Origin: a virus
Strand: one strand, 5' to 3'
Virus record (IMG/VR): IMGVR_UViG_3300017917_001524
Location: 62,001-126,000 of that record
Length of the DNA: 64,000 bases
Below the pieces are notes generated by a model. That model made no database searches. It was not told the origin of the DNA and saw only the letters and a program-made list of their open reading frames with translations. A program made the translations under genes and the position numbers. Below, piece by piece: positions 977 through 60,694 of this stretch (positions are counted from its first letter, which is position 1; each line of letters begins with the position of its first letter).

Positions 977-984
977 TATTTATT
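977..984 (+). promoter_or_regulatory. Putative late promoter, TATTTATT
   Basis: Octamer TATTTATT preceded by C and ending 4 bases before the tape-measure ATG. The same octamer recurs before most structural units of this window. If it is a -10 element, the transcript would start at or very near the ATG. Confidence 0.55.
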
Positions 985-988
985 ACAT

Positions 989-2917
989 ATGGAACCAATA
1001 GATGTTTTTAATGATTCAAGAGGGTTAAGTGATTTTTTATCTAAAATGTATGGTAGAACAATTACTCAACAGCAAAGAACTGATGGTACTAATATGTATA
1101 ATACATTTTTAAGAATTAAAAATAATTCAAATAATAGTATTAATAGTGGTACAAGTTTTTTTAGTGGAACAAATAATTCAACAGACTCACCTAATTTTTT
1201 AACAAACGCATTTACAAAGTTAACCAACGCAATTAACGCTATAACAATTGGTAGTGCAAATGTGATACAAAATCTATATCAATCACAAATTGGACAAGGG
1301 ACATCAACACAAAATTTTGATGCGATTAATGAAACAATCAAATTAGTTCAATCCAATGGATTAATTAGTTTTAATTTGTTAAAAGATATGGGTGGATTAT
1401 TGATGAATCAGTTTTTAGATCAACTAAAAAAAGAATCAGAATTAAGATCAAAAATAAATGAACAATCATCAGTTACTGGTATTTTATCAGAAAAGATGAG
1501 AGAGGACATTGTTGAATCTTCAATATCCGCACAAAGATATGGGTTCACAATGGAAGAGATTTCTGATCTATATGTTGAATTAACAAAAGAAACTGGTAAA
1601 TTTTCCATTTTAAATAAGAAAATTTTTGATGACGCAGCACCAATTGTTAGAACATTTGTAAGTAGTTTTGGTGAGTTGTCAAAAATGATTTCAAATTTTG
1701 AAAATGTTGGTATTGGTACAAATGAAACGTTAAAAACAATTGAAAAGGCTGGTGTTAGATCTATTAGTTTAGGTTTAAATGCTAGAAAAACGACTGAATT
1801 ATTAAACACAAATATTAGTAAGTTAAATGAATTTGGGTTTCAAAACGGTGTTAAAGGTTTAGAAACCATGATACGTAAATCACTGGAATTTAAAAATAGT
1901 TTAGAATCAGTATATACCATTGCAAATAATGTTTTTGAACCCGAAAAAGCGTTAGAATTATCTGCAAATTTACAAGTATTGGGTGGTGCTATTGGTGATT
2001 TTGGTGATCCAATAAAATTAATGTACGACGCGACAAATAATGTTGAAGGATTGCAAGATGCGTTAATTGGTGCATCAAAATCGTTGGCAACATATAATAC
2101 TGAACAAGGTAGATTCGAAATTACGGGAGTTAATTTAAGAAGATTACGTGCAATGGCGGATTCTTTAGGTATTAAATACGAAGACTTAACAAAAACAGCA
2201 ATATCAGCAGCAGAAAGAATGAGTGCAACAACCGCATTAATGTCAACTGGATTAAATATCAATGATGCTGATAAAGAGTTTTTATTGAATTTGTCTAGAA
2301 TGGATGGTGGTGAAATGAAAATCATCATACCTGAATCAATAGCAAAACAATTTAATAAACCTGCTGAAATTGCTTTGGATAAACTAGATAAGAACACATA
2401 TGATGCGTTAACAGAATATCGTAAAAAAATGGAATCTTTAGATACTAAAGAGCTTGCCATGGAACAATTAACTGAAACTGAAAGAATGGCAAGAGATATT
2501 AATGTTATTGCTGCGTATTATAAAGTTAGGTCAACCCAAATGGTTAAAGGAATTGTTAGTGGTTCGGGAATAAAAAACTTATACGATAATTTAAGAAATG
2601 TTATTAGTGATGCTGCAAATGAAAAGATAAAAACACCTGAGTTTGGTTTAGATAAAAAAATGGAAACAAAAACCAAAGACTTTATCAATAACTATATTAA
2701 CATTGACGATAAGATTTTAACACCAAAATCAAATAATCAAACATCATCAGTTAAAAATAATACCGAAAATTCGTTTGTTTCAAAAGAAGTATTAATTGAT
2801 TCGTTCTCAATTGCGTTACAAAAATACGATAATATAAGAAGAAAAGATAAAATTGGTGTTCAATTAGAAATGACAAGTACTTCAGATTTTTTTAATGTTG
2901 AACAAATTATGGTATAA
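989..2917 (+). CDS. Tail tape measure protein (gp29-like role)
   Basis: 642 residues, largely helical, with a Ser/Asn-rich N-terminal stretch (residues 45-75). A long alpha-helical centre contains ALELSANLQVLGGAIGDFGD followed by NLRRLRAMADSLGIKYEDL, a pattern seen in tape-measure proteins of Bacteroidota phages. A tape measure fills the tail tube lumen and sets tail length. With about 1.5 angstrom per residue, 642 residues would give a tail of roughly 95-100 nm, close to T4 (gp29, 590 residues). It follows the gp26-like gene and precedes the baseplate hub genes, the expected place. There is no transmembrane segment, unlike many siphophage tape measures. Confidence 0.75.
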   Translation: MEPIDVFNDSRGLSDFLSKMYGRTITQQQRTDGTNMYNTFLRIKNNSNNSINSGTSFFSGTNNSTDSPNFLTNAFTKLTNAINAITIGSANVIQNLYQSQIGQGTSTQNFDAINETIKLVQSNGLISFNLLKDMGGLLMNQFLDQLKKESELRSKINEQSSVTGILSEKMREDIVESSISAQRYGFTMEEISDLYVELTKETGKFSILNKKIFDDAAPIVRTFVSSFGELSKMISNFENVGIGTNETLKTIEKAGVRSISLGLNARKTTELLNTNISKLNEFGFQNGVKGLETMIRKSLEFKNSLESVYTIANNVFEPEKALELSANLQVLGGAIGDFGDPIKLMYDATNNVEGLQDALIGASKSLATYNTEQGRFEITGVNLRRLRAMADSLGIKYEDLTKTAISAAERMSATTALMSTGLNINDADKEFLLNLSRMDGGEMKIIIPESIAKQFNKPAEIALDKLDKNTYDALTEYRKKMESLDTKELAMEQLTETERMARDINVIAAYYKVRSTQMVKGIVSGSGIKNLYDNLRNVISDAANEKIKTPEFGLDKKMETKTKDFINNYINIDDKILTPKSNNQTSSVKNNTENSFVSKEVLIDSFSIALQKYDNIRRKDKIGVQLEMTSTSDFFNVEQIMV

Positions 2918-2931
2918 TTTTTATTGACACC

Positions 2932-2939
2932 TATTTATA
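2932..2939 (+). promoter_or_regulatory. Putative late promoter, TATTTATA
   Basis: TATTTATA preceded by C, 13 bases before the ATG at 2953, in the 35-base gap after the tape-measure gene. One of the recurrent octamers upstream of structural genes. Confidence 0.55.
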
Positions 2940-2952
2940 TTAAAAAAGAATA

Positions 2953-8069: not shown

Positions 8070-11000
8070 CGATTTATTGAACAACGAGAATATTTTAGTT
8101 AAAGTGGATCAAAATAACTTAGTTTATATTGATCCAAATAGCGTTATTGATAATGGTGAAATACAATCTAGAGGTATCAAACAAGAAAATTTGGTCATGT
8201 ATGCGAATCTTGAAGCTGATATCGTACCTAGAAGTTATTTAACAAAAAATGACAACAGTAATACAATTGTTTCAATTTCAAGAACAACAATAAACCTATT
8301 ATCTAACTATACTAAAGATGGTGATACAAATGTAAAATATTTTGACACCACATGGACAAATGCGTTTAATGGTTCAGATGAAACCACATACGAAATTGAT
8401 AGTGATGGTAAGAAAAGATATACTGGACAAAAAACCGTAAATCGGGATAGTAGTGCACAAACTTTCGGTATTGATTCAATTGAGGTTAATACTAAAGGGT
8501 TTAATGGTATTCCAAGAGTTTTTATCACATTTATTGATGTTAGAGGTAAAACACTATTTGAATCCCCTGAAAATTCACCATATAAAGCGTTTTTTCATTT
8601 ACCGTGGCCAATATTTTATTTAACAATAAAAGGTTATTACGGTAAAGCAATTAAGTATAGATTACATTTAGTAAAGTTCAATTCTAAATTTAATGGTGGT
8701 ACGGGTAATTATGATATTACATGTGAATTTGTTGGTTCAACATTTGCATACTTGAATGAAATACCGTTAAATGGTATTTTAATGTCACCATACTTATATC
8801 CAATAGAAACGGTTAAAAATGAAACGGTAACATTTAATCCCGAAAACCAAACATATCAACAAGTAGTTGCCAAAACAACTAGAGGCTATGAAATTTTAAA
8901 ATCGGTATACAATGAATACAAACAAAAAGGGTTAATAGATAAAGACTTTCCTGTTAAAACATTGAGAGAGTTAATTATTGTTTCCGAAAGTTTGGACAAG
9001 ATATTAGAGAGAACTATTTTTGATCAAGTAATCGACGCAGATATTTTAAATGCAATCGTATCATATGAAAAATCATTAGTTGATTTTGAAAATATGGTAG
9101 TTTCTTGGGGAAATGTGAATCTATCAAAAAACCAAGGGTTTCCATTTGCGGGTAATCCTTTTTATTATTATTTATCGAATTCTAATAATAAAACAATCGG
9201 TATTGATAAGGTAACAGGATCGACAAAAAATGGGACACTGGAATATATTTTAGAACAAGCTAAAAACAGATTAATTAATGAAGAAAAACTAACGAAATTA
9301 ATTGCAGACAAACAAAAAAAGAAATTAGATAATTTTACATTTAATAGTATCAAAATCAACACAATAAAAAACATTAAGAATTATTATGATGTTGATCCTG
9401 ATGGTAAAATCGGTGTTGCGATCGACTTGTTGGTTAATGATATAAGAACAATTATCACGAGTTTTAATACACAAAAATCTGAAATTGAGAAACAGATTGA
9501 AATTAAAATGAATGAAGTTGTTAAAGACAAAACAAAAGGATTTGGTTTTGACCCAACAATTAGAAATATCTTTGCGGTTGTATTAGCAAATGCCGAAGTT
9601 TATGTGAGATTATTGAAAGACGTACATGAAAAGGCGTTTGAAATTGGTGCAGAAAGAGCTAAAATCATTGGTAATTTATCCGATGAGTCAACAAAAGAGG
9701 GTGCAATATATCCATGGCCTGAAATAAAAAAAACTGTTGGTGGTGGTTCAAAACACAAAGTAATAACACACCCAACTGATCCTGATTTGATAAATCAGTT
9801 AAGATCATATGATAAAAATTTATGGCCTGAAGTAGACTTTATTGAAAATTATATTAACGTAACAACGAAAGTTTTTGATCCGTTAGCAGAAAAAGAGGGT
9901 TCAATTGGAAATATTAATTATGTATTCTCATCAGATGTTGATGGAACAAAAATGAATAAAATTTCTGAGTTAGATGTGTTGATGTTTGGATTACCATATA
10001 CAAATAAAACACTATCAACAATTTTATACGAAATTTTTGAGAGGTCGTTTTACACTACATTGGTGGAAAATTATAATTCAAACACAATTACTGAGTTATC
10101 AAAAATTGAAACTGAAAATATTTTCCAATCAATTAAATTTGAATATGATATATCTGAAATTCTTAGTAAAATCTCAAATATAGATCAATTTTATGATAAA
10201 TTGAAAAGCACGTCTATTTTTGAACGTTATCCATATTTAAAAGATCAATTACCGACAATACCATACATAAATGAGATTGTGAATAAACCATATCGTTTCG
10301 AACAATATACATTGGAAAATGTGGATAGAATCACTACACCAAATAATTCATCATCTTACAACAGTTTAACCGAATTTTTACTAAACTATAAACCAGAAGA
10401 GTATCGAAAAAATCGTTATCCATTTAATTCAAATGAATACCTGAGTTATTTAAATTCACAATCAATCACAGATGATAACATATCATTTAATGGAATATTG
10501 AATGTTGACACCAAAAATGGTTTGATTACTTCTGATGTTGACGGTAAAAAATGGGTAAAAAATAATTTTACCAACTTGTTTGATAACAATATGAACATTT
10601 CAAATAAGTTAGTTAATATTTTAAATACACCGTATTTCCATAAACAACTTTATTCTGATTTCACAAATAATATAGTGTTTGGTAAATATGCTGGATCTGC
10701 TTATTTGTTGGTAAATTCGTTAGCGTTTAAAGATTTAGAAGATAACTTCTTTAACTCAACAAAAACATTCTCATTATTTAATGAGATTGGTTCAACACAT
10801 TTTTTACCATATCATTTGATTGTTAAGTGGGGTTCAATTTATCATAGATATAAAAAATATATTAATGATGGTGTTGACATATTATCAGGATTTTTAAACA
10901 CATCAAACATCACAACCAGTTTTAATGGTTCGGAATTTTTTGATAACAACACAAATACGACCTATAATGTTCTTGGAACACCAATAAAGTATTCGGATAA

Positions 11001-13821
11001 TAAAGATATTGGTATCCACCCATTCTATGATGCTATTTTCCATCAAATAATAAATGGTTATGCTCATTATAATGTATCACAAGGTAACATATCATTCGAA
11101 AATAATGTGATCAATAATACAATATTAACATCATCTAACGTAATAAATGGTGAAAGATATTGGACAACATTTGTAGATAATTCAAAATTTTCTAATACCA
11201 CATTAGAATATACCATGTTACCATCAAACGGGTATTATGGAAACACAAATAGTGTACAAGATTATTTTGTAAAGGAACAAAGATCAATGCGTGTTATTTG
11301 GGATAGGTTGGATAACACAATCGATTTTAGTGGTAAAAAGTTTTCATCATATTCGGAGTACAATCGAATTAAACAGTCAGGAACAACGTTAGATAATGAA
11401 TATGGGATTGGTGATAATTACAGAAAAATCATTGATTTAATAGGTACATTTAGTCCTAAAATACTTGATGAATTTGAGAATATTTTTTTAAGATTTGCAT
11501 CTGAAAAAATTGATGAAGAATTGGCATATAAAAGATTTAACACCGTACAATATTACTATTTCCAAGATTTATTGAAAGCAATATGTGTTGTTCCTAAGAA
11601 AACAACAGATAATATATCAAACATTGTGACATTGTTGGAGGACATTGTTAGTAGACAAAAAAATAATTTGAATAACGTTTCTAACAATCTCATTAAACCA
11701 AACAATTTAATTTCTTTTACCATTTATAACCCAAAAGAAATTGATCCACATGTTGGTTATGGTTTTATTGATGCGGTTGAAGAAAATACATTTACGTTTT
11801 CAGATTTTAATGTTTCACAGTTAACCACAAATAATTTAAAACATATTGAATTATATCTTGGTGAAGATATTGATAACGCGTACCGTCAATTTTTTATTAC
11901 GAATAATGTCGAATTAAGTCAAGAAAATGTTATTCAGTTTAGACCGTTGATACAATATTTTGCTGGTTTGCATAAAACAAGACCAACAATTACATCAAAT
12001 GAATTTAAAGAAGAACTACGAAAAAATGTATTTGTGTTAGTTGACGACGATAGAATCAAACTAACAAGGAATCATAGGGATTTTCTAAATAAATTGTTGT
12101 TAAGTCTGTCACAAAAATTAAATGACAATAAAAAGACTCAACAACGTGAACAACAAATTTATAGACCATCGTATAATGATGACCCATTAAAAAATGAATT
12201 ATACTCGTTTTTCAAAACATATAACGATAGATGGGCTGGAGGAAACTCTATCGGTCAGAGATTATTATTTGAAGAGTTTTTGTTTTTAGATAAAGCGAAT
12301 AGGGATATCGGTGATTCGGCATATTTTAATTTGTTAAGATTAATCCCATTGGGTAATAAGAATAACCAAAAGGCTTCATTATATTCAATCATTTCAATGT
12401 TAATTCAAGGAACTGGATTTGATATGAGGGTGTTACCATCATATACAAATTTTTATGGTGATACTATAAGAAATCGGAATAGAATTACACCATCAAAAAA
12501 CTTGGCACAAAATATTTTTGGAACGTATTTAGATGTTGATTATCAAGAATCAACACCAAAAGTAATTATTCAGTACACAGGTCCGACATCAAAATACTTG
12601 GATTTAAGTAAGTATAGTAAAGAATTTAAGTATTCTGACGATAGTTTCAATATCGGTAATCAAAATAATAATCCAATGATTATTACAATACCTGACGCTT
12701 TTAATAATGACATGTTGTACAAATCAAATAGGGTTGTTGCTTTTGAAGTTAGTTTGGGAGATCAGAATCAGGGTATTTTTAAGAGTTTTGAACTTGATCA
12801 ATCAAGTATTAAAAACACCACAGAATCATTTATTGCTTTAGAAAATTTAGCAAGATCAGAATCAGGATCAAACGCATATCAAGTTGATATTGGATTATAT
12901 GACATATATAGACAAGCGTCATATAAGTGTTCAGTAACATCAATGGGTAATGTTATGATTCAACCAACGATGTATTTTTATCTAAAAAATGTCCCAATGT
13001 TTAAGGGGTCATATTGGATTACAGATGTAACACATAAAATACAAAACAATAATATTGTAACAACATTTGTTGGAACTAGAATACCATCATCATCGTTACC
13101 GGATCCTAAAGATTCTTTGATGTCAAGTTATAAACCATTATTTGACACAATACTACAACGAGCCACTGCACGTGTTAGGGTACAAGATACTAATAATCTA
13201 ACCAAAAAGTGGACATTTACGGTTAATGGACAAACAAAAATGGTTGATTTAGGTACTAAACGATTGGAAGACCATAGATTGATTGTACGTGAATCAAATT
13301 ATACTGAATTTGGTGTACCATATAACGGATATGTAAATCCGGAGGGAAAATCTGAAGAGTATATACAAAAGATTAGTGTTTCGGGTTCAGGTATAGGTAC
13401 TGGTGAATGGTTAAGAGCAAACGTAGTTATGTTTGAAGGTGAAAACTATCAATTAAATGATGATACCCAAATGACACTATTCTCATATAGAACACCAAAA
13501 TCAAATGTTACGTGGAAAGATATAAAAACTGAGAATAATAAATCTAAATTTTATTCAACAAGATTTTTATTACATACCATAGATAATAACATATCCAATG
13601 CAATTGATAAATTATTTGGTGCGACAACCACATTCTATAATCCTGAAACCAAAACACAAGTCGTGTTAAAACATAATTATGACGTTAACAATAAAGTATT
13701 TAATGGTCCGATAAATGTCGGACCTAAAATCTCAGAATACGGTATTGCAATGTCTAAAAAATTGATGACAGAACTGAAATTAGAAAAGGATGGTGACGTG
13801 GTATATTTTAGAATAAATTGA
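8059..13821 (+). CDS. Giant baseplate hub protein (gp27/late-control-like), 1920 aa
   Basis: 1920 residues. The N-terminal region contains AFFHLPWPIFYLTIKGYYGK at about 175-195 followed by a LHLVKFNSKFNGGTGNYDIT segment, typical of hub-type beta domains that describe tube-like ring packing. Near residues 1610-1680, CSVTSMGNVMIQPTMYFYL is followed by GSYWITDVTHKI and FVGTRIP, the pattern of the C-terminal domain of hub proteins of the gp27/gpD type. The C-terminal 60 residues (VGPKISEYGIAMSKKLM, then LEKDGDVVYFRIN) look like a small additional domain. No lysozyme or metallopeptidase signature was seen. The hub role is inferred from these motifs and from the position beside gp53 and the tape measure. 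Confidence 0.6.
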   Translation: MGNNDLLNNENILVKVDQNNLVYIDPNSVIDNGEIQSRGIKQENLVMYANLEADIVPRSYLTKNDNSNTIVSISRTTINLLSNYTKDGDTNVKYFDTTWTNAFNGSDETTYEIDSDGKKRYTGQKTVNRDSSAQTFGIDSIEVNTKGFNGIPRVFITFIDVRGKTLFESPENSPYKAFFHLPWPIFYLTIKGYYGKAIKYRLHLVKFNSKFNGGTGNYDITCEFVGSTFAYLNEIPLNGILMSPYLYPIETVKNETVTFNPENQTYQQVVAKTTRGYEILKSVYNEYKQKGLIDKDFPVKTLRELIIVSESLDKILERTIFDQVIDADILNAIVSYEKSLVDFENMVVSWGNVNLSKNQGFPFAGNPFYYYLSNSNNKTIGIDKVTGSTKNGTLEYILEQAKNRLINEEKLTKLIADKQKKKLDNFTFNSIKINTIKNIKNYYDVDPDGKIGVAIDLLVNDIRTIITSFNTQKSEIEKQIEIKMNEVVKDKTKGFGFDPTIRNIFAVVLANAEVYVRLLKDVHEKAFEIGAERAKIIGNLSDESTKEGAIYPWPEIKKTVGGGSKHKVITHPTDPDLINQLRSYDKNLWPEVDFIENYINVTTKVFDPLAEKEGSIGNINYVFSSDVDGTKMNKISELDVLMFGLPYTNKTLSTILYEIFERSFYTTLVENYNSNTITELSKIETENIFQSIKFEYDISEILSKISNIDQFYDKLKSTSIFERYPYLKDQLPTIPYINEIVNKPYRFEQYTLENVDRITTPNNSSSYNSLTEFLLNYKPEEYRKNRYPFNSNEYLSYLNSQSITDDNISFNGILNVDTKNGLITSDVDGKKWVKNNFTNLFDNNMNISNKLVNILNTPYFHKQLYSDFTNNIVFGKYAGSAYLLVNSLAFKDLEDNFFNSTKTFSLFNEIGSTHFLPYHLIVKWGSIYHRYKKYINDGVDILSGFLNTSNITTSFNGSEFFDNNTNTTYNVLGTPIKYSDNKDIGIHPFYDAIFHQIINGYAHYNVSQGNISFENNVINNTILTSSNVINGERYWTTFVDNSKFSNTTLEYTMLPSNGYYGNTNSVQDYFVKEQRSMRVIWDRLDNTIDFSGKKFSSYSEYNRIKQSGTTLDNEYGIGDNYRKIIDLIGTFSPKILDEFENIFLRFASEKIDEELAYKRFNTVQYYYFQDLLKAICVVPKKTTDNISNIVTLLEDIVSRQKNNLNNVSNNLIKPNNLISFTIYNPKEIDPHVGYGFIDAVEENTFTFSDFNVSQLTTNNLKHIELYLGEDIDNAYRQFFITNNVELSQENVIQFRPLIQYFAGLHKTRPTITSNEFKEELRKNVFVLVDDDRIKLTRNHRDFLNKLLLSLSQKLNDNKKTQQREQQIYRPSYNDDPLKNELYSFFKTYNDRWAGGNSIGQRLLFEEFLFLDKANRDIGDSAYFNLLRLIPLGNKNNQKASLYSIISMLIQGTGFDMRVLPSYTNFYGDTIRNRNRITPSKNLAQNIFGTYLDVDYQESTPKVIIQYTGPTSKYLDLSKYSKEFKYSDDSFNIGNQNNNPMIITIPDAFNNDMLYKSNRVVAFEVSLGDQNQGIFKSFELDQSSIKNTTESFIALENLARSESGSNAYQVDIGLYDIYRQASYKCSVTSMGNVMIQPTMYFYLKNVPMFKGSYWITDVTHKIQNNNIVTTFVGTRIPSSSLPDPKDSLMSSYKPLFDTILQRATARVRVQDTNNLTKKWTFTVNGQTKMVDLGTKRLEDHRLIVRESNYTEFGVPYNGYVNPEGKSEEYIQKISVSGSGIGTGEWLRANVVMFEGENYQLNDDTQMTLFSYRTPKSNVTWKDIKTENNKSKFYSTRFLLHTIDNNISNAIDKLFGATTTFYNPETKTQVVLKHNYDVNNKVFNGPINVGPKISEYGIAMSKKLMTELKLEKDGDVVYFRIN

Positions 13822-13841
13822 GAATCTTAATAATATCAAGA

Positions 13842-13849
13842 TATTTATA
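13842..13849 (+). promoter_or_regulatory. Putative late promoter, TATTTATA
   Basis: TATTTATA preceded by A, 11 bases before the ATG at 13861. Same octamer as the other late units. Confidence 0.5.
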
Positions 13850-13860
13850 TTAAAAACAAT

Positions 13861-14061
13861 ATGAATAACAATCATAACATAAATGGTGCGATTGATAGTT
13901 TTTTAGGTAAAACTAAAACAACTCAATTAAATAGTAAAGAACAAGAAATTTGTGATTTACAAACAGGAGAATGTTACGTATTAAGATCCAAAGACGGTAT
14001 CGTAGAAAGAATAAATAAAAAATATATTACCGATGACGGTAGACAATTACTTCAAGATTAA
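13861..14061 (+). CDS. Small conserved-looking late protein, function unknown
   Basis: 66 residues with two cysteines (CDLQTGEC, about 38-45), followed by YVLRSKDGIVERINKKYITD. The C-terminal part reads like a small beta domain. It is the first gene after a late-promoter octamer and ends 5 bases before the next gene, so it is probably expressed late with the tail genes. I do not recognise a family. Confidence 0.65.
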   Translation: MNNNHNINGAIDSFLGKTKTTQLNSKEQEICDLQTGECYVLRSKDGIVERINKKYITDDGRQLLQD

Positions 14062-14066
14062 TTACC

Positions 14067-14711
14067 ATGTTAGAAAAAAAATTACAAGAAGCTCTTGATC
14101 GTTATAAAAGTATTAACAAATACACCGCAAAATTATTAAAAGAACAAGAAACACCTGCAGAGGAAATTCCACCAGCACCCGAAGGTGATACAGGAGTACC
14201 ATCTGCCCCTGAAGGTACTGATGTTCCACCAGCACCAAGTGAAGATCCTGCGGTTGCAGAACCAGTTGGGGATGTTCCACCGTTACCAGATGAAAGTGAT
14301 GTGGAAGAAATTGACATTACAGATCTTGTTAATATGACTAAGAGTATTAAAAAAGACTTAGAAAATAGTAAACAAGATAATAGTGGTGTAGAAGCTAAGA
14401 TGGATAGTCTTTTTACTAAACTTGATGAGTTGGAACAAAAGTTATCACAAATGGATAACATTATATCAAGAATCGATGAGTTAGGGTCAAAAATCGATAA
14501 TGTTAAACCTAAAACACCGGAAGAAAAATTAGAAATGAGATCATTAGACTCATATCCATTTAGTCAAAATCCAAAAGAATTTTTTAATGACAAACAACAA
14601 CAAATGAAGATGTCAGGTAAAAATGAATATGTTTTAACAAAGAACGATGTTCAAAGTTATACACCATCGGAAATAATGAAATCTTTTAATCCTTCAACAA
14701 ATGAATATTAG
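14067..14711 (+). CDS. Coiled-coil protein with Pro/Glu-rich linker, function unknown
   Basis: 214 residues in three parts. Residues 1-30 form a basic helix (LEKKLQEALDRYKSINKYTA). Residues 31-85 are an acidic linker rich in Pro, Ala and Glu with repeats of the PPAPE/VPPAP type. Residues 85-150 form a heptad-type coiled coil (MDSLFTKLDELEQKLSQMDN). The C-terminus is polar. This architecture suits a virion linker, scaffold or tail-assembly factor, but nothing identifies it. Its last 11 bases overlap the next gene. Confidence 0.65.
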   Translation: MLEKKLQEALDRYKSINKYTAKLLKEQETPAEEIPPAPEGDTGVPSAPEGTDVPPAPSEDPAVAEPVGDVPPLPDESDVEEIDITDLVNMTKSIKKDLENSKQDNSGVEAKMDSLFTKLDELEQKLSQMDNIISRIDELGSKIDNVKPKTPEEKLEMRSLDSYPFSQNPKEFFNDKQQQMKMSGKNEYVLTKNDVQSYTPSEIMKSFNPSTNEY

Positions 14712-15075
14712 TACTAATGTAAATTTTTTATTGGGTTTACAAACACAATTAAAAGTATTTCATTGGCAAACAAATGTTTTTTCAAGACATGAAGCATTTG
14801 GTAAAATATATGACGAAATTGACGGTTTAATTGATGATTTTGTTGAACAAGCAATGGGTAAATATGGTAGATTTAAATTAGATGATGAAACTAAAACAGT
14901 TACATTAACTAATTTAGATGAAATGAACATTAAAGGGTTTTTAGATACCGTGGCAGATGCTTTGGTACAATTTACCGATATTTTAGATGAAAAGGATACT
15001 AACTTATTAAATATTCGAGATGAGATATTGGGGTTAATATATAAGTTGTCCTATCTTCTCACATTAAAGAAATAG
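14701..15075 (+). CDS. DUF5856-like / Dps-like ferritin-fold protein
   Basis: 124 residues. The N-terminal pattern LGLQTQLKVFHWQTNVFSRH, then a FGKIYDEIDGLIDDFVEQAM helix, matches the phage family DUF5856, which has the four-helix arrangement of Dps/ferritin proteins (FHWQT...H...ID..ID.F.E). Those residues line the ferroxidase-type site in Dps, but whether this protein binds metal or DNA is unknown. It overlaps the upstream coiled-coil gene and is followed by a strong terminator, so it is the last gene of this late unit. Confidence 0.7.
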   Translation: MNISTNVNFLLGLQTQLKVFHWQTNVFSRHEAFGKIYDEIDGLIDDFVEQAMGKYGRFKLDDETKTVTLTNLDEMNIKGFLDTVADALVQFTDILDEKDTNLLNIRDEILGLIYKLSYLLTLKK

Positions 15076-15098
15076 AAAAAAAATTAAAAAAAAACTTG

Positions 15099-15128
15099 AA
15101 GTCAGATTTTGTATCTGACTTTTTTTTT
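15099..15128 (+). terminator. Intrinsic terminator after the first late block
   Basis: A 9-bp perfect stem AAGTCAGAT / ATCTGACTT (15099-15107 with 15113-15121) with loop TTTGT, followed by an uninterrupted run of T. It separates the tail block from the SSB gene. An upstream in-frame extension of the SSB frame begins inside this hairpin and is therefore not the real start. Confidence 0.85.
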
Positions 15129-15168
15129 ACTATATTATATTACAAACTTAAACTTTAAATTTTATAAC

Positions 15169-16017
15169 ATGTCAACATTAGATTCAGTACTTGCACAGTA
15201 CGAAAAAAACAAAAAAAAGACAACTAACACCACTTACACAAAAGTATCAGACGAAGAAAGATTAAAAAAGTATTTTAATGCGGTATTACCTAAAGGGGTA
15301 GAAACGTTGGAAAAAAGAATCAGAATTCTTCCAACAAAAGATGGTTCTACACCATTTGTGGAAGCAAATTTCCACGACATTTATGTGGATGGTAAATCAG
15401 TTAAATTGTATGATCCTGAACAGGACGGTGAAAGATCACCACTTAATGAAACAAAAGAAATTCTTGAAATGTCAACCGACCCAAAAGATGTTGAAGTTGC
15501 AAAAGATTATCGTTCAAAAAAATTCTACATCGTAAAATTGATTGACAGAGATAAAGAGAATGATGGCCCGAAATTTTGGAGATTTAAACATAATGGTAAA
15601 GGTGAAGGTACATTAGATAAAATCATCCCAATTTGGAGAAATAAGGGAGATATTACCGACCCAATTGAAGGACGTGACCTTATTTTGACTTTATCATTGA
15701 TGAAATCAAATAAAGGTAATGAATATACTGTGGTGAGCGCTGTGATTCCTGAAGATAAAGGTCCGTTACATAGTGATCCTGAGATTGCAAAACAATGGAT
15801 GGAAGATCCGATGACTTGGTTAGATGCGTTCCCTAAAAAATCTGTTGAATATCTTGAAATCATAGCTTCAGGGGATGTTCCAAAGTGGAATAACGACTTG
15901 AAAAAGTGGGTTCCAAAATCAAATGGAGAAACAGGTGAAATTAGTTTGGGATCACCAAATGTAAGTATTGAAGACCCACAATCAGATGATGATGTTAGTG
16001 ATGAATTACCCTTTTAA
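15169..16017 (+). CDS. Single-stranded DNA-binding protein, gp32-like
   Basis: 282 residues. The basic N-terminus (LAQYEKNKKK) is followed by a gp32-type core: KRIRILPTKDGSTPFVEANF, then a FYIVKLIDRDKENDGPKFWR segment. It ends in an acidic tail DDDVSDELPF, like the protein-interaction tip of SSBs. It coats ssDNA during replication and recombination and would recruit UvsX and the helicase encoded next to it. T4 gp32 has 301 residues. No zinc-binding Cys cluster is present, unlike T4 gp32. The ATG at 15169 is chosen because the frame upstream runs into the terminator. Confidence 0.85.
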   Translation: MSTLDSVLAQYEKNKKKTTNTTYTKVSDEERLKKYFNAVLPKGVETLEKRIRILPTKDGSTPFVEANFHDIYVDGKSVKLYDPEQDGERSPLNETKEILEMSTDPKDVEVAKDYRSKKFYIVKLIDRDKENDGPKFWRFKHNGKGEGTLDKIIPIWRNKGDITDPIEGRDLILTLSLMKSNKGNEYTVVSAVIPEDKGPLHSDPEIAKQWMEDPMTWLDAFPKKSVEYLEIIASGDVPKWNNDLKKWVPKSNGETGEISLGSPNVSIEDPQSDDDVSDELPF

Positions 16018-16022
16018 ATAAT

Positions 16023-16080
16023 AAGAACTTGGGTGTTTAGTATAATGAATTATCAATATTAATCATCCAAGTTCTTTTTT
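16023..16080 (+). terminator. Intrinsic terminator after the SSB gene
   Basis: Stem AAGAACTTGGGTG (16023-16035) with CATCCAAGTTCTT (16064-16076), 13 bp with one G-U pair and a 28-base loop, followed by TTTT. The loop is long but the stem is strong. It would let SSB be made in excess over the downstream UvsX. Confidence 0.75.
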
Positions 16081-16098
16081 TACAAAAAAATTAATAGA

Positions 16099-17091
16099 AT
16101 GTCAAAAAGTATAAAGAAAAAAGAGTTTAACTATAAAGAAAAGTTCTCATCAAAAACAAAATATAAAGAAACGAATTACTATTTCTGTGGTGAACCGTTT
16201 TTAAATGCGTGTGGACTCCCTGGACCTGTTATGGGTGGAATTAATATGTTTTTGGGTCACTCAAACTCATCAAAAACAACTGCACTTGTATTGGCAGCGG
16301 CTGACGCACAAAGAAGAGGACATTTACCGGTATTCATTATTACAGAAAAGAAATGGAGTTGGGAACATGCGGTTGAATTGGGTTTACAGGCAGAAAAAGA
16401 TAGTAATGGTGAATGGGATGGTGATTTCATTTTTAACGATAGTTTTGATTATATTGAACAAGCAACTGACTTTATAAATGAAGTTTTAGATGCACAGGAA
16501 AAAGGTGAGATTGACAGATCAATACTATTCTTATGGGATTCTATTGGATCTATACCGTGTAAAATGACCTTTGAAGGTAAAGGTGGTAAAATGCACAATG
16601 CTGCTGTTCTTGCGGATAAAATTGGTATGGGAATTCATTCAAGAATTTCAAAATCTAAGAAAGAAGATTATCCATTTATTAATACATTGGTTATTGTTAA
16701 CCAACCATGGGTAGATTTACCTGATAACCCATTCGGTCAACCTGAAATTAAGGCTAAGGGTGGTGAAGCGGTATGGTTGGCATCTTCACTTGTTTTCTTA
16801 TTTGGAAATCAGAAGAAAGCGGGAATCAGTCATATTGAAGCACAAAAAGATGGTAGAAAGGTGTCATACGCTATTAGAACTAAGATTTCAATTTTGAAAA
16901 ACCATGTTAATGGTCTTGGATATAAGGATGGAAAAATAATTGCGGTTCATAATGGTTATATTGACGCAACTAAAGAGGCCGAAGATGAGTATAAGAAGTT
17001 GTATTCAAGTTATTGGTCACAAAAATTGGGTGGTGATTTTAGTTTAATTGAATCAACGTCAAGTAATGAAGAAGAAGAAATCGAAGGATAA
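16099..17091 (+). CDS. uvsX: UvsX/RecA-like recombinase
   Basis: 330 residues. The P-loop is GHSNSSKT at residues 53-60, a divergent Walker A like that of T4 UvsX, with RecA-fold segments PVFIITEKKWSWEHAVELGL and SILFLWDSIGSIP (Walker B) following. The later LVIVNQPWVDLPDNPFG segment corresponds to the RecA L1/L2-side core. It forms filaments on ssDNA coated by the adjacent gp32-like protein and drives strand exchange and recombination-dependent replication. The C-terminus is acidic (SSNEEEEIEG). The last 26 bases overlap a small zinc-ribbon gene. Confidence 0.9.
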   Translation: MSKSIKKKEFNYKEKFSSKTKYKETNYYFCGEPFLNACGLPGPVMGGINMFLGHSNSSKTTALVLAAADAQRRGHLPVFIITEKKWSWEHAVELGLQAEKDSNGEWDGDFIFNDSFDYIEQATDFINEVLDAQEKGEIDRSILFLWDSIGSIPCKMTFEGKGGKMHNAAVLADKIGMGIHSRISKSKKEDYPFINTLVIVNQPWVDLPDNPFGQPEIKAKGGEAVWLASSLVFLFGNQKKAGISHIEAQKDGRKVSYAIRTKISILKNHVNGLGYKDGKIIAVHNGYIDATKEAEDEYKKLYSSYWSQKLGGDFSLIESTSSNEEEEIEG

Positions 17092-23722: not shown

Positions 23723-23730
23723 TATTTATT
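23723..23730 (+). promoter_or_regulatory. Putative late promoter, TATTTATT
   Basis: TATTTATT preceded by A, 3 bases before the ATG at 23734 and just after the terminator. This marks the switch from the replication block to the late baseplate block. Confidence 0.55.
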
Positions 23731-24078: not shown

Positions 24079-24103
24079 TATTTATTTGTTTACTATATTT
24101 ATT
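24079..24103 (+). promoter_or_regulatory. Two tandem putative late promoters before gp25
   Basis: TATTTATT occurs twice, at 24079-24086 and 24096-24103, 17 bases apart. The second ends 3 bases before the ATG at 24107. Doubling of the motif before the gp25-gp6 unit is unique in this window. Confidence 0.55.
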
Positions 24104-26416: not shown

Positions 26417-26424
26417 TATTTATA
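26417..26424 (+). promoter_or_regulatory. Putative late promoter, TATTTATA
   Basis: TATTTATA preceded by C, 6 bases before the ATG at 26431. The left half also belongs to a small inverted repeat AAATAG-TTT-CTATTT (26407-26421). Confidence 0.5.
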
Positions 26425-30138: not shown

Positions 30139-31892
30139 TGGAAAGAAAAAAAATTGTTTTACCTACTAAAAGATTTTTTGAATCACCCGAACAAGATTTA
30201 TCATTTAAAATTGATTTATCTAAAAAGGAAAATTTACTTAGAGAGGGTGATAAAAATATACAGTTGAATTTATCACAACTTTATGATAAAGAAAGAAACC
30301 AATCTAAAAATTATAGAGTATTTGGTAAAATAAAAATGGTGTTTAGGAACATGTATAGTGGTAACACATCATACACACCATTAAAACAAAATCTTTATTT
30401 GAAGGGTGACGGGACAGATGGGGATTTTACAGGGTACATACCTTATGATGAATTTGCATTTTTAAGAAGAGATGTTTTACGTGAAATAAATTTACCAAAT
30501 AACACATCAACATTAGGTGATTTTACACAAAACATATCTGTTGTTGGGTATACCGGGCACACAACGTTACCATCAATTGTTGCACCATATCAAAATTGGA
30601 ACATTTATTTATCATATGTCAATGATTCGGACAACGAATATCCAATGACATATACGTTAACGGGTAATACCTTTATTTCATTTAAATCTGGTGATGGTAT
30701 ACCATTTAGAGTGGTGGAATACCCAAAATACATTAAGTTAGTATCACCTGTTGAACATGGAATATCTGAAGGTGAATATATTGTATTATCAGGTGGTACA
30801 TTGGATAATAGTGTTGCATTATCGGGTAGAACATTTGAAATTGAAAGTGTTGGTGATGAAACATATAACTCTGAGAAATATGTTATTAACATTCTTAAAA
30901 GTGAGATACAATCGGGAGTAACATTTAACCCTATCATGTTAGGTAAAAGATGTTTAGATAAAGATGATATAACCGGAACCACATCACAATATTATGTTCA
31001 CAAACACAAATTATTAACAGATGTTAATGATTATATTTTGGATAAAGCTGGTTTTGAATCTGCGATATGGGAAGATGAGAAAAAAATCATTTTTGAGAAT
31101 AGTGAAGGTGTAAACGATATTATTGTTGAAAGAAATAGAATGGAGTCCGTGTTATTTGGGTTTAAAAATCATATAACATTAACAGGATTTACGAATAATT
31201 TGAATTACACACCAACAAATGTTTATGTTTCAATTGTTTTTAGAAATGGTAATGGTTATTTTGATTATCCACCTAAGATTGGATATAAATTTAATTTTCA
31301 TAATGATTGGGTCGACAAACATTTTGAGGGTAGTACATCAAAAGAAACAAATTTAACATACCAAACATTTACCGGAAATACACAAAGTGGTTATACGTTT
31401 TATAGTGGGCAAACATTAAATGTTGGGGACACATTAGTTGGTTCGTTTGTTGAATATAATGTTAACGAGTTAAAAGAAAGAATTATAAGTGAAAATTACC
31501 ATAAAATAACAATACCAAAAAACGTGTTTGATTATGGTCAAGATGATCCATTAATTTATTCTGGTGTGACTTCAGGTAACACTTTTGGTATGTATTATCA
31601 ACCACACTACGTTGTTAAATTAAGACAAGAATCACCATATATTGAAACATCAGACACCAATGTAATTGATGGTATACCGGAGAACAACAAATTCTTTCCA
31701 AATGAAAATATATGGAAATGGAGAGATCTATATGACCATGGGTATATAGATGATAATGGTTTCGGAACAAATTACCCATTTTTAAATAACACCCATAATG
31801 TTAAGTTAGACATCAATTTTTATTTAAGAAATGAGTATAACTATAAGAATAAGGAAGACGGTTTAAGACCATTTAAAATAATTGATTGCTGA
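30138..31892 (+). CDS. Tail/baseplate structural protein (584 aa), unknown family
   Basis: 584 residues starting in the last base of the previous stop. After a basic N-terminus (MERKKIVLPTKRFFESPEQD), the protein is beta-rich with many SGNTF, LTGFT and QSGYTF turns. KNVFDYGQDDPLIYSGVTSG and a final WKWRDLYDHGYIDDNGFGTN segment near the C-terminus resemble long thin baseplate-arm proteins of Bacteroidota phages. Its stop overlaps the next ATG (TGATG). A structural role is inferred from neighbours and composition. Confidence 0.6.
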   Translation: MERKKIVLPTKRFFESPEQDLSFKIDLSKKENLLREGDKNIQLNLSQLYDKERNQSKNYRVFGKIKMVFRNMYSGNTSYTPLKQNLYLKGDGTDGDFTGYIPYDEFAFLRRDVLREINLPNNTSTLGDFTQNISVVGYTGHTTLPSIVAPYQNWNIYLSYVNDSDNEYPMTYTLTGNTFISFKSGDGIPFRVVEYPKYIKLVSPVEHGISEGEYIVLSGGTLDNSVALSGRTFEIESVGDETYNSEKYVINILKSEIQSGVTFNPIMLGKRCLDKDDITGTTSQYYVHKHKLLTDVNDYILDKAGFESAIWEDEKKIIFENSEGVNDIIVERNRMESVLFGFKNHITLTGFTNNLNYTPTNVYVSIVFRNGNGYFDYPPKIGYKFNFHNDWVDKHFEGSTSKETNLTYQTFTGNTQSGYTFYSGQTLNVGDTLVGSFVEYNVNELKERIISENYHKITIPKNVFDYGQDDPLIYSGVTSGNTFGMYYQPHYVVKLRQESPYIETSDTNVIDGIPENNKFFPNENIWKWRDLYDHGYIDDNGFGTNYPFLNNTHNVKLDINFYLRNEYNYKNKEDGLRPFKIIDC

Positions 31893-33596: not shown

Positions 33597-33604
33597 TATT
33601 TATT
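33597..33604 (+). promoter_or_regulatory. Putative late promoter, TATTTATT
   Basis: TATTTATT preceded by A, 12 bases before the ATG at 33617, in the short gap after the PKD-domain gene. Confidence 0.5.
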
Positions 33605-39229: not shown

Positions 39230-39237
39230 TATTTATT
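39230..39237 (+). promoter_or_regulatory. Putative late promoter, TATTTATT
   Basis: TATTTATT within GATCTATTTATT, 30 bases before the ATG at 39268. A weaker copy, TATTTAAT (39257-39264), ends 3 bases before the same ATG. The GATC-TATTTAT context also occurs at 51397-51407. Confidence 0.4.
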
Positions 39238-50695: not shown

Positions 50696-50699
50696 AATA

Positions 50700-51374
50700 A
50701 TGATAAAAAAAGAAAAGTCACCATTTAACCTTTACGCCAGAGACAAAGGAATCAGTTCATTGAGTTTGGATTACTACAACAAACGTATTGAAAATAGTAT
50801 GACACCACACATTATCGAAGAAAGACCTCTTAATATTGCACAAATTGATGTTTTTTCCAGATTGATGATGGAAAGAATTATTTGGGTTGCGGGTGTTGTT
50901 GATGATCGAATGTCAACAATCGTACAAGCACAATTAATGTTTTTGGATAGTGTAAATAATACTGATATCACAATCCATATTGATAGTCCCGGCGGAAGTG
51001 TGAAATCAGGTTTATCAATGGTCGACGTAATGGATTATATAAAATCCGACATTAGAACAATTAATACTGGTATGGCTGCGTCTATGGGTTCAGTATTATT
51101 AGGTGCAGGAACAAAAGGGAAAAGAGGGTCACTAAGGTTTTCAAGAACAATGTTACACCAATCAAGCGGTGGTTTTGAAGGGAATATTCAAGATGCTGAA
51201 ATTAGTATGTCAGAATGGAAAAAAGTTAACGAGTTATTATTTAATTTATTGGGGGAATATTGCGGTAAAGACCCCAAAAAGGTCATGAAAGACGCATCAA
51301 GAGATCTTTGGTTGTCGGCTGAAGAATCCGTAAAATATGGTATTATTGATGAAATTGTTAAGACCAAAAGGTAG
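50700..51374 (+). CDS. ClpP-family serine protease
   Basis: 224 residues. The peptidase S14 triad is intact: Ser128 in GMAASMGSVLL, His153 in TMLHQSSGG, Asp202 in SRDLWLSAEES. The spacings of 25 and 49 residues equal those of E. coli ClpP (S97, H122, D171). The ITIHIDSPGGSVKSGL strand-turn is the substrate-groove segment. An extra 30-40 residue N-terminus replaces the axial loop region. It could serve as head-maturation protease (some phages use ClpP-like ones) or work with host ClpX/ClpA. The location among recombination genes and just before a late promoter does not decide between these. Confidence 0.88.
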   Translation: MIKKEKSPFNLYARDKGISSLSLDYYNKRIENSMTPHIIEERPLNIAQIDVFSRLMMERIIWVAGVVDDRMSTIVQAQLMFLDSVNNTDITIHIDSPGGSVKSGLSMVDVMDYIKSDIRTINTGMAASMGSVLLGAGTKGKRGSLRFSRTMLHQSSGGFEGNIQDAEISMSEWKKVNELLFNLLGEYCGKDPKKVMKDASRDLWLSAEESVKYGIIDEIVKTKR

Positions 51375-51400: not shown

Positions 51401-51408
51401 TATTTATG
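51401..51408 (+). promoter_or_regulatory. Putative late promoter, TATTTATG
   Basis: TATTTATG in GATCTATTTATGG, 12 bases before the ATG at 51421. It marks a late start for the spanin-like gene within an otherwise early/middle-looking region. The in-frame ATG at 51406 lies inside the motif and is not taken as the start. Confidence 0.5.
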
Positions 51409-52120: not shown

Positions 52121-52138
52121 TAAACTGTGTACAATCAT

Positions 52139-52945
52139 ATGAGTAAAACAATTGTAGAAAATTCTGACGACCTTCAACTTTATATTAAAGACATTAAAAA
52201 AATCCCAGTAATAACACACGAAAGACAAGACCAGATTTTTAATTTATTACAAGATTCTAATATCACGAAGAGACAAAAAGAAAAGTTATTAGATGAATTG
52301 GTGACAGGTAATTTAAGATTTGTGATTTCAGTTGCTAAAATGTATCAAAATCAAGGGTTACCGTTAAATGACCTAATAAATGAGGGTAACATTGGTTTGA
52401 TAAAGGCGGCAACTCGTTTTAAACCTGAAAGTGGTTTACGATTTATCTCATATGCGGTTTGGTGGGTTAAACAGTCGATTATTGCATCTTTAAATGAGTA
52501 TTCAAGAACAATACGTGTACCATCCAACGTGTTACATGAAAATCAAAAAGAGAAGAGAGATCGATCAAATGATGAATTTAATTTTAAGGAAGACCACAAT
52601 GGGTTTACCGGTGCGTATATTCCACACTGTGTTTCATTGGATTCTGATATAAATGAGGATGGTGATCAGTTGATTGAATTAATTCCTAATCGAAATGCGG
52701 ATAATCCTGAAAGTGCGTTGGATACGAAGGAAGAAATTAAAAAAAGAGTTTCTTTGATGTTAGGTGTTTTAGATGAAAGAGAAAAAACCATTATTGAACG
52801 ATATTTTGGGTTAAATGGTATTGAATCCAATTTAGATGATTTAGGTGAAGAGTTTGGTTGTACTAAAGAAAGAATTAGACAATTAAAAGACAAAAGTCTA
52901 AAAAAATTAAGAAATGAAAGTTATTTACTATTCAAGTATTTATAA
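52139..52945 (+). CDS. RpoD-type (sigma-70 group 1/2) sigma factor
   Basis: 268 residues from the ATG at 52139; a GTG 12 bases earlier is less likely. Region 1.2/2.1 begins DDLQLYIKDIKKIPVITHER. Region 2 has NLRFVISVAKMYQNQGLPLN, then DLINEGNIGLIKAATRF and ISYAVWWVKQSI (regions 2.3/2.4, promoter melting and -10 contact). Region 3 is short. Region 4 ends LGEEFGCTKERIRQLKDKSL (helix-turn-helix for the -35 side). This is the layout of Bacteroidota primary sigma factors, shortened. It probably redirects host RNA polymerase to phage promoters, the task of gp55 in T4, and the TATTTAT octamer is the likely target. Confidence 0.85.
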   Translation: MSKTIVENSDDLQLYIKDIKKIPVITHERQDQIFNLLQDSNITKRQKEKLLDELVTGNLRFVISVAKMYQNQGLPLNDLINEGNIGLIKAATRFKPESGLRFISYAVWWVKQSIIASLNEYSRTIRVPSNVLHENQKEKRDRSNDEFNFKEDHNGFTGAYIPHCVSLDSDINEDGDQLIELIPNRNADNPESALDTKEEIKKRVSLMLGVLDEREKTIIERYFGLNGIESNLDDLGEEFGCTKERIRQLKDKSLKKLRNESYLLFKYL

Positions 52946-52950
52946 AAACT

Positions 52951-55162: not shown

Positions 55163-55164
55163 CA

Positions 55165-55404: not shown

Positions 55405-56105
55405 TGGAAAAAGTTAAAGGTGGTTTATCAGACAATAAAACATTATCACAGATCGCTAAAAAACATTCGTGTGATGTTTCCGAATTGAAGAAACAATTGA
55501 TGGTTGGTGTTAAGGTCGAAAAAGAACACACTAATAACGATAAAGTAGCAAGGGAAATTGCGTTGGATCATTTGTTTGAAGACCCAAAATATTATCAAAA
55601 ATTAAAAAAAATCGAAAAAACTGAACCAAAGGAACAGACCATGGCCAGTTCATCGGGTTCGTTTGAATCACCTGCTTTTGGGAGTGTTGTTAAACGAAAA
55701 ATCAATAAGATCCATAATATGAATGAAAATGTTGGGGAATTTAAAGAAGCTACCGACGCATCATCGTCAGGTGCTTATGATGTTCCATTATTTGGATCAA
55801 CACCTAAAGGTCGTAAAAATCCATTAAAAATTGATGGGGTTAAAAGTATTAAAAAAAGTCGTGCGGTTAAAGATAAAAATTTCCCAAAGTGGGGTGGACC
55901 TGGTGGTGTTTTCATTAAAATAAAAGATAAATGTAAAAAATTTCCATATTGTAATCAAGGTGACATAAATGCAATTGAACAACTTCGTGAAGCGATAGTT
56001 TCTGTCTCTAAGGAACGTAATATACCAACTAAAGAAATCGAAAAACTTGTGTTAAACGAAATTAAAGAAATATTTATAAAATATGAAAACAATCGAACTA
56101 AATAA
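55404..56105 (+). CDS. DUF5661-like protein with Gly/Pro-rich C-terminal module
   Basis: 233 residues in two modules. Residues 1-70 match the DUF5661 pattern: KVKGGLSDNKTLSQIAKKHS, then LMVGVKVEKEHTNNDKVARE and IALDHLFEDPKYYQKL. Residues 75-195 hold a repeated 'ASSSG.{3}P.FGS' unit (ASSSGSFESPAFGS and ASSSGAYDVPLFGS), then KDKNFPKWGGPGGVF and KCKKFPYCNQGDINAIE, a module common in large phages. Both are uncharacterised. The last 23 bases overlap the next gene. Confidence 0.7.
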   Translation: MEKVKGGLSDNKTLSQIAKKHSCDVSELKKQLMVGVKVEKEHTNNDKVAREIALDHLFEDPKYYQKLKKIEKTEPKEQTMASSSGSFESPAFGSVVKRKINKIHNMNENVGEFKEATDASSSGAYDVPLFGSTPKGRKNPLKIDGVKSIKKSRAVKDKNFPKWGGPGGVFIKIKDKCKKFPYCNQGDINAIEQLREAIVSVSKERNIPTKEIEKLVLNEIKEIFIKYENNRTK

Positions 56106-57225: not shown

Positions 57226-57246
57226 GACTTTTTTTTCTATCTAATT

Positions 57247-57270: not shown

Positions 57271-57271
57271 A

Positions 57272-57709: not shown

Positions 57710-57746
57710 AAAAAATTTGGTATTTTGATATTAAAAACTGAAGTTT

Positions 57747-58680: not shown

Positions 58681-58900
58681 GGAATTATTAACTAAGATTG
58701 CAATTATTTCCGACAATATTGAAAAGTTACCATTAACACCTAAATCTGTAACCGTTACCCTAAATTTAAGTGAAACCGAATATGATAAAGTATTTCAAAC
58801 AATACAATCATCATATAATAATAAATTAGTAAAACCTAAAAATTCATTTAATATCACTATTGGTGGTGTTGATTTTGTGATTAATATGAGTAATGTCTAA
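58667..58900 (+). CDS. Small protein, function unknown
   Basis: 77 residues from the ATG at 58667; a TTG six bases earlier is less likely. KNKELLTKIAIISDNIEKLP, then a beta segment VTVTLNLSETEYDKVFQTIQ and SFNITIGGVDFVINMSN. Its last 20 bases overlap the end of the leftward 212-residue gene, so transcription converges here. Confidence 0.6.
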   Translation: MEKNKELLTKIAIISDNIEKLPLTPKSVTVTLNLSETEYDKVFQTIQSSYNNKLVKPKNSFNITIGGVDFVINMSNV

Positions 58901-59519: not shown

Positions 59520-59668
59520 AGGAATTTACTAATAAGGGAATATATACCATATAACGAAAATAATGACCAAATAATAACAAACACTACAGTTGATCGACTA
59601 ATAAAGTCACCACTTTCATTCATTTTTTCATTAAAGGATTTTCTTTTTTTACAACTTTCACACGCCAT
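59516..59668 (-). CDS. Small zinc-knuckle plus membrane-helix protein
   Basis: 50 residues starting at the reverse ATG 59668-59666. It opens MACESCKKRKSF, a CxxC pair, and continues NEKMNESGDFISRSTVVF then the hydrophobic VFVIIWSLFSLYGIYSLISK, which looks like a single membrane helix. Its stop overlaps the start of the 212-residue gene (ATGA, 59519-59516), a strong sign of a real translated pair. A single CxxC is too little for a full zinc site unless it dimerises. Confidence 0.6.
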   Translation of the reverse strand: MACESCKKRKSFNEKMNESGDFISRSTVVFVIIWSLFSLYGIYSLISKFL

Positions 59669-59760
59669 ATATCAATATAATTATTATCTTAATAATATTC
59701 AATAGATTTTGTTTTTTCAAGATTTTTAAGTATTATTTTTTATTCAAACAATTATAAAAA

Positions 59761-60603
59761 ATGATAAGTTATATTGGTGGTAAGGCTCGTATTGGTAAGT
59801 GGATTGTACCTTTTATTCCAACAGACATTGAAACGTATGTAGAGGGGTTTTCGGGGATGTTTTGGGTGTTTTTTAATATGGATCTATCCAAGTATCCGAA
59901 TCTAAAAACAGTCGTTTATAACGACTTTAATGGTCTTAACGCAAACCTTATGAAATGTGCTAAAAACTATGATCGTTTATGGGACGAATTATTAAAATAC
60001 CCCTGCCAACAATTGGGGGTAGTTGACACACCTCCTGAGTATCAAGAATTATTTATTCAATGTCAAAAAGAAGTGTTTGACCCCAACTTTGTTATCGGAT
60101 CTGAACCAAATTACGATGCTGCAGCAAAATATGTTTATGTTTTGACACAAGTATTTTCAGGTTCAAAACCTGAAACATCAGCATATACCGATTATAAAGG
60201 GAAATATCGATGTAAAGTTTTGATTTTTATGGATAAATTAAAAAACAAAAAATATCAAGAACATTTCGACAAAATCACATTTATTGAAAATATGGATTTT
60301 CAAGATGTTGTTTTGAAATATGATTCATCAACAACATATTTTTATATGGATCCACCATATTGGAAAACCGAAAATTATTATTCAAATCATGACTTCGATA
60401 GTAAAGACCATGAAAGATTATCAAATGTAATCAAAAACATACAGGGTAAGTTTAGTTTATCTTATTATGATTTCCCACAATTAAATGAATGGTATCCAAA
60501 AGAACAATATAGATGGGAATCTAAAAATTTTAAGAAAGCCGCGGCGGCAAAGAAAAATGTATCACAAAATGAAGGAACTGAACTTTTAATTATGAATTAT
60601 TAG
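59761..60603 (+). CDS. dam: Dam-type (D12 class) DNA adenine N6-methyltransferase
   Basis: 280 residues. The SAM-binding motif is YIGGKARIGKWIVPFIP with a later ETYVEGFSGMFWVFFNM (F-x-G type), and the catalytic motif is YFYMDPPYW (Asp197-Pro-Pro-Tyr) followed by DHERLSNVIKN. It methylates adenine, most likely in GATC, and may protect phage DNA or affect packaging or gene control. It has an A-rich leader and is divergent from the leftward two-gene unit. A terminator follows 22 bases after its stop. Confidence 0.87.
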   Translation: MISYIGGKARIGKWIVPFIPTDIETYVEGFSGMFWVFFNMDLSKYPNLKTVVYNDFNGLNANLMKCAKNYDRLWDELLKYPCQQLGVVDTPPEYQELFIQCQKEVFDPNFVIGSEPNYDAAAKYVYVLTQVFSGSKPETSAYTDYKGKYRCKVLIFMDKLKNKKYQEHFDKITFIENMDFQDVVLKYDSSTTYFYMDPPYWKTENYYSNHDFDSKDHERLSNVIKNIQGKFSLSYYDFPQLNEWYPKEQYRWESKNFKKAAAAKKNVSQNEGTELLIMNY

Positions 60604-60625
60604 TGTTTTTTGGTTATTTGATATG

Positions 60626-60655
60626 AAAGGGAAGAGTAAAATCTTCCCTTTTTTT
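60626..60655 (+). terminator. Intrinsic terminator after dam
   Basis: A 10-bp perfect stem AAAGGGAAGA / TCTTCCCTTT (60626-60635 with 60642-60651), loop GTAAAA, then TTTT. It ends the dam unit before the tail-fibre block. Confidence 0.9.
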
Positions 60656-60686
60656 ATTTGAGTATGATGACATAATAAAAACATAC

Positions 60687-60694
60687 TATTTATT
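60687..60694 (+). promoter_or_regulatory. Putative late promoter, TATTTATT
   Basis: TATTTATT preceded by C, 16 bases before the ATG at 60711 and 1 base before an in-frame ATG at 60696. It starts the tail-fibre unit after the dam terminator. Confidence 0.55.

Follow-up and report, generated by a model that had tools for sequence, protein, structure and literature searches.

The window (64,000 nt) spans positions 62001-126000 in a virus record of 310,542 bp and carries copies of a TATTTAT(A/T) octamer, TATTTATW, shortly upstream of a series of genes that includes a gp25 baseplate-wedge gene and an acetyltransferase-like gene (phrog_3810, ATG 23734). It also encodes a SigA-like sigma factor, while a gp55-like gene lies elsewhere in the record (Table 1). 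The eleven octamers listed by an earlier, sequence-only reading were all found at exactly the coordinates given and on the + strand, one of them (51401) being the variant TATTTATG and not TATTTATW; two further good + strand boxes (52937 and 56071) were absent from that list. The 51401 box overlaps the ATG of a longer ORF and the likely start is the downstream one, as orthologous starts usually lie 15-24 nt downstream of the longest-ORF ATG. The nominal start at 60696 was probably mis-called as well, the in-frame ATG at 60711 being likelier; no orthologues of this gene were found among related loci. The box at 56071 sits within the 3' end of the preceding ORF, and the one at 52937 covers the final codons and the stop of the sigma gene, which ties the C-terminus of this protein and its stop codon to the putative promoter of the next gene.

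Table 1. Candidate late boxes and sigma-factor-like genes (window coordinates unless stated; orthologue counts refer to upstreams that keep the box).
Feature	Position	Strand	Distance to start, or product	Orthologues or matches
Late box TATTTATT	977..984	+	4 nt to ATG 989	2/2 orthologues found
Late box TATTTATA	2932..2939	+	13 nt to ATG 2953	33/33 non-redundant, gap 10-16
Late box TATTTATA	13842..13849	+	11 nt to ATG 13861	9/9
Late box TATTTATT	23723..23730	+	3 nt to ATG 23734	3/3, gap 4 in all
Upper second box TATTTATT	24079..24086	+	20 nt to ATG 24107	
Late box TATTTATT	24096..24103	+	3 nt to ATG 24107 (gp25 baseplate wedge)	49/49, gap 3-4 in 45
Late box TATTTATA	26417..26424	+	6 nt to ATG 26431	44/47, gap mostly 5-9
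Late box TATTTATT	33597..33604	+	12 nt to ATG 33617	12/15
Late box TATTTATT	39230..39237	+	30 nt to ATG 39268	
Late box variant TATTTATG	51401..51408	+	12 nt to likely ATG 51421	TATTTATW in 9/11
SigA-like sigma-70 family gene	52127..52945	+	regions 2 + 4	phrog_351 6e-48, PDB SigA 1e-36, PF04542, PF04545
Late box TATTTATA	52937..52944	+	6 nt to ATG 52951	7/10
Late box TATTTATA	56071..56078	+	4 nt to ATG 56083	28/30, gap 4-7
Late box TATTTATT	60687..60694	+	1 nt to nominal ATG 60696, 16 nt to in-frame ATG 60711	
gp55-like gene	record 31149-31847 (outside window)	-	232 aa	weak Sigma70_r2

The octamer shows a strand bias, TATTTATA occurring 10 times on the + strand of the window and once on the - strand. 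TATTTATW as a whole is found at 22 sites on the + strand and 12 on the - strand, and 12/22 of the + sites versus 2/12 of the - sites fall within 40 nt upstream of one of the 50 plus-strand starts. The string alone is not the signal, since 10/22 + strand sites lie more than 40 nt from any start. Enrichment over shuffled sequence, on which the earlier proposal depended, was present at both scales: TATTTATW precedes 11/50 starts in the window (mean 1.9, maximum 6, in 1000 dinucleotide-preserving shuffles) and 51 genes in the whole 310,542-bp record (mean 11.2, maximum 21, in 300 such shuffles). Additionally, TATTTATA is about 32 times commoner just upstream of ATG than in the coding sense strand, and most of its single substitutions are much less enriched before ATG than TATTTATA itself; the element was therefore defined as TATTTAT(A/T) on the strength of the substitution and enrichment tests. 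With an A+T content of 70% and many internal copies of the string, coincidence in an AT-rich genome might be thought sufficient, but it is rejected by the shuffles, by anagrams and by the opposite strand, and refuted by orthologue footprinting (63-100% versus 0-7%, see below), which leaves it a negligible probability. Motif finding by EM converged on poly-T/A when a zero-order background was used, and k-mer, substitution and footprint tests took its place.

For the footprinting, about 250 related IMG/VR loci were gathered with four window proteins, the orthologous start was located for each window gene and non-redundant upstreams were counted (2 to 49 per motif-headed gene). Eleven motif-headed genes were tested; the gene at 39533 was counted among them from the relatives, in which the box stands 4-9 nt before this gene in 19/30 cases, the box of the present genome lying upstream of 39268. 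For ten of these genes the box is kept in 63-100% of orthologue upstreams, with 100% in four (33/33, 9/9, 3/3 and 49/49), and for the eleventh (989) in both of the upstreams found; for every other window gene tested the figure is 0-7%. Variation of the box among relatives is mainly in its last base. Conservation across diverged contigs is the pattern expected of a promoter under selection, and base composition is thereby excluded. The set of genes that had been noted as lacking the octamer also stands: the UvsX, exonuclease, helicase and primase genes carry no box, and orthologues of the UvsX, helicase, primase, gp47/46-like and sigma genes show it in 0-3% of upstreams. Elsewhere in the record, the terminase, a gp21-type protease, a scaffold-like gene and the genes for head completion, sheath and tube are also headed by the box, which lies 34 nt (sheath) and 38 nt (tube) from the ATG in the last two. 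On the other hand, the statement that it heads nearly every late unit was too strong, for no canonical box lies within 60 nt of the record's portal and major capsid genes, and the 39230 box is 30 nt off. The box is thus found before virion or presumably late genes and is absent from replication genes.

A de novo k-mer analysis of 448 upstreams recovered TATTTAT and, as a separate motif, TATCTTTG/TATATTTG, which corresponds to the Bacteroidota sigma-A box TAnnTTTG. This host-type class is concentrated at 180-260 kb of the record, which would be an early region and where late boxes are nearly absent. Shine-Dalgarno-like sequences were seen in just 2/448 upstreams, in line with the TAnnTTTG class that points to a bacteroidete host; both observations agree with the earlier suggestion of a host that makes little use of Shine-Dalgarno sequences. 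The Bacteroidota sigma-A promoter resembles the late box in its leaderless spacing of about 4 nt, and it is used by the same phage for another class of genes, but it differs in its consensus, in the presence of an upstream element and in the genes that it heads. It could be argued that TATTTATW is a variant of this host -7 element read by the host holoenzyme, given that both start with TA, are T-rich and can stand 3-4 nt before an ATG. However, positions 3-4 are fixed in TATTTATW and the TTTG end is missing, and the two classes are found in separate parts of the record (18 host-type boxes versus 0 late boxes at 240-260 kb). They also differ further upstream: a -35 signal is seen in the host-type class, where information content reaches 0.28-0.37 bit over adjacent -35 positions, whereas the late class shows no consistent one, with at most 0.28 bit scattered from -34 to -2. 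The late box has neither the TAnnTTTG consensus nor the upstream element of a Bacteroidota sigma-A promoter, and its reading by the host holoenzyme appears improbable. A side observation concerns a ClpP/prohead-protease-like gene in the window (50700-51374), which has a host-type TAnnTTTG box in 31/44 of its relatives' upstreams; a separate gp21-type protease at record 17775 carries a late box, and the two probably differ in timing.

The distance between box and start codon is itself informative. Among relatives, 4 sites end 0-2 nt from the ATG, 98 at 3 nt, 71 at 4 nt and 30 at 5 nt, and the distance, which is cut off sharply at its lower end, extends from 3 nt up to about 35 nt. For the host-type boxes of the record, most distances cluster at 18-20 nt, with one short peak at exactly 4 nt. 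The Bacteroidota sigma-A box has been mapped at -12 to -5 (PMC9723704), and the 4-nt peak would therefore place the start site on the A of the ATG. The 3-nt floor of the late box is best read in the same way, any closer position costing the message its AUG. Late mRNAs are thus probably leaderless where the box lies 3-5 nt from the ATG, as the floor and the peak at 3-4 nt suggest, and the earlier proposal of nearly leaderless late messages gains support from this spacing. Leaderless genes with a TANNNT signal near the start have been described (PMC3160421); the reasoning is the same, in that a -10 box some 10-12 nt before the start codon implies the absence of a leader, but they are bacterial genes read by sigma-70. 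Upstream of gp25, more than one box is found in 30/49 orthologues; the upper box stands 30-31 nt from the ATG, and its distance to the lower box is always 27 nt. Such pairs could therefore yield both leaderless and leadered gp25 messages. In the present genome the two boxes are 17 nt apart, versus 27 nt in relatives. The proximity of the box to the ATG in many genes might also suggest a signal acting in the RNA, at the level of translation. Nevertheless, such a signal should hold a fixed spacing, whereas the distance varies above its floor, and it should mark internal cistrons, whereas the box is missing before genes inside transcription units; nor would two boxes 27 nt apart be expected before one gene. 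A translational role is accordingly given a very low probability.

In T4, a late promoter lacks a -35 element and consists of an 8-bp box that lies about one turn before the start (PMC2988020); gp55 opens the promoter, and gp45 and gp33 act as its activators (PMC7892883). The octamer had been dismissed as a lookalike on the ground that it is the reverse complement of the T4 box, a conclusion that is not supported. Both TATTTATA and TATAAATA are nearly palindromic and agree at 6/8 positions when read on the same strand, and the reverse-complement match would be a coincidence of this near-palindromy. Since the late box also lacks a -35 element, as in T4, and the phage encodes a gp55-family protein, TATTTATW is more likely a diverged version of the T4 late element than a lookalike. 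In both, virion genes are headed by one AT box of 8 bp, which occupies the -10 position. They differ in the two central bases, AA in T4 being replaced by TT in TATTTATW, and in spacing, T4 boxes (in 49 kb of T4) lying 14 nt or more from the ATG and those described here down to 3 nt, a contrast that the sequence-only reading had drawn correctly. Additionally, TATAAATA itself is not the enriched string in the upstreams, which departs from the T4-type 8-bp consensus. Late promoters of KVP40, 44RR, S-PM2 and Aeh1, identified in silico (PMC2988020), likewise represent a late box that varies among relatives of T4, but they are close to TATAAATA or altered at -13/-12, none of them being described there with a central TT. 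The box appears to behave like a T4 late promoter, strict membership failing on the consensus, and recognition by gp55 is predicted. A description of the TATTTATW box was not found in the open literature searched (most subscription journals lie outside it), and megablast against named phages gave no match.

Two phage proteins are candidates for reading the box. An HMM of ten known gp55 proteins ranked the record ORF at 31149-31847 first of 1111 ORFs (E 5.5e-4), and hhalign of this ORF against known gp55s gave P=1.3e-4, collinear from residue 1, compared with P=0.59 for the SigA-like protein against the same gp55 alignment as a control. Homology to known gp55s is thus detectable over the sigma-2 region. 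The pairwise match to T4 gp55 (PDB 7d7c_F) by phmmer is collinear but weak (E 0.067); a profile search of the PDB with a deep alignment missed gp55, and the single sequence matched it weakly. The AF2 model has a pLDDT of 80 and a pTM of 0.43 (77 sequences), versus a pLDDT of 50 with a shallow alignment. Foldseek with this model returned mostly sigma factors as top PDB/BFVD matches, none at E<=0.001, including gp55 7d7c (TMt 0.52) and a KPV15 sigma-like protein (0.60), both above E 0.001. At its C-terminus the protein also has a helical region with no counterpart in T4 gp55. A PF02916 search for a gp45 clamp gave no match, the control set being silent as well.

The SigA-like sigma of the window would be an alternative reader, complete with regions 2 and 4 and conserved through the window clade. 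However, a sigma with region 4 predicts a -35 element, which is not seen in the late class, and the cultured Flavobacterium phage immuto has the same box and a gp55-like protein (gp118, 5e-17) while a SigA-like sigma is absent from it by phmmer and PF04545. As the box is common to immuto and the window clade while immuto lacks the SigA-like sigma, the shared gp55-like protein is the better candidate. Recognition by the SigA-like sigma is unlikely, though less so than the other alternatives considered, and the box is probably read by another protein.

Taken as a whole, the orientation, conservation and enrichment of the octamer support the earlier proposal of a directional -10-type late element. 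The best explanation, with about three chances in four of being correct, is that TATTTATW is the -10-type late promoter element of a clade of large T4-like Bacteroidota phages, most likely read by a gp55-family sigma. Host RNA polymerase carrying the phage gp55-family sigma would recognise TATTTATW without a -35 element and start transcription about 4 nt past the octamer. Where the box lies 3-5 nt from the ATG, the 5' end of the mRNA would fall on or beside the A of the start codon and the message would be leaderless; where it lies 10-20 nt away, a short leader would result. Several points stand against this explanation, namely the weak pairwise gp55 homology, the portal and capsid genes without a canonical box within 60 nt, the C-terminal region unlike T4 gp55, and LR756508, a distant 484-kb uncultured phage that encodes a gp55-like protein but has hardly any TATTTATW in 42 kb of its sequence; in this phage the box and the gp55-like protein may have diverged further. 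TATTTATW is read as a variant of the T4-type late promoter, and the evidence that its late messages are leaderless is strong but indirect.

Leaderless mRNAs make up just 5.5% in F. psychrophilum (PMC9723704). A more doubtful extension, offered tentatively, is that the gp55-family sigma evolved a start-codon-fused promoter, so that infection would move from host-type mRNAs that mostly have leaders to virion mRNAs that largely lack them, perhaps favouring another mode of ribosome entry at the late stage.

Immuto, which grows on Flavobacterium sp. LMO8, is just 27% identical in gp6. In the 97 kb of immuto that were read first, TATTTATW stands before 21 genes, among them those for terminase, portal, sheath, tube, hub and tape measure, and the distance from box to ATG in the immuto clade also peaks at 3 nt. 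The element is not general to AT-rich Bacteroidota phages, since no TATTTATW box was found in the 50 kb examined of Tenacibaculum phage PTm1, a large Bacteroidota phage. T4 late transcription was worked out in one host lineage, and the Bacteroidota have their own sigma-A code and make little use of Shine-Dalgarno sequences. Phages of this phylum are now seen to combine a gp55-like gene with a late box that is conserved among them but divergent from that of T4, and the presence of the box in a cultured phage makes it testable. In hundreds of large phages known only from uncultured material, the box can serve as a simple marker of late genes, and the 3-nt limit, with the matching 4-nt peak of the host-type class, makes leaderless phage mRNA in Bacteroidota directly testable.

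Some additional features were observed in these genomes. The other strongly repeated upstream motif of immuto, TATTTAGGTA with ATCAATAATTAAAA, is likely its early promoter. ATACATA is over-represented before genes in PTm1 (10 versus 1.0 expected) and is perhaps that phage's own promoter box. Outside the window, the terminase large subunit (record 10453-13458, 1001 aa) and the portal (13516-16290, 924 aa) contain long insertions between or before their homologous parts; the portal insertion carries an HNH domain, and these insertions are possibly inteins.
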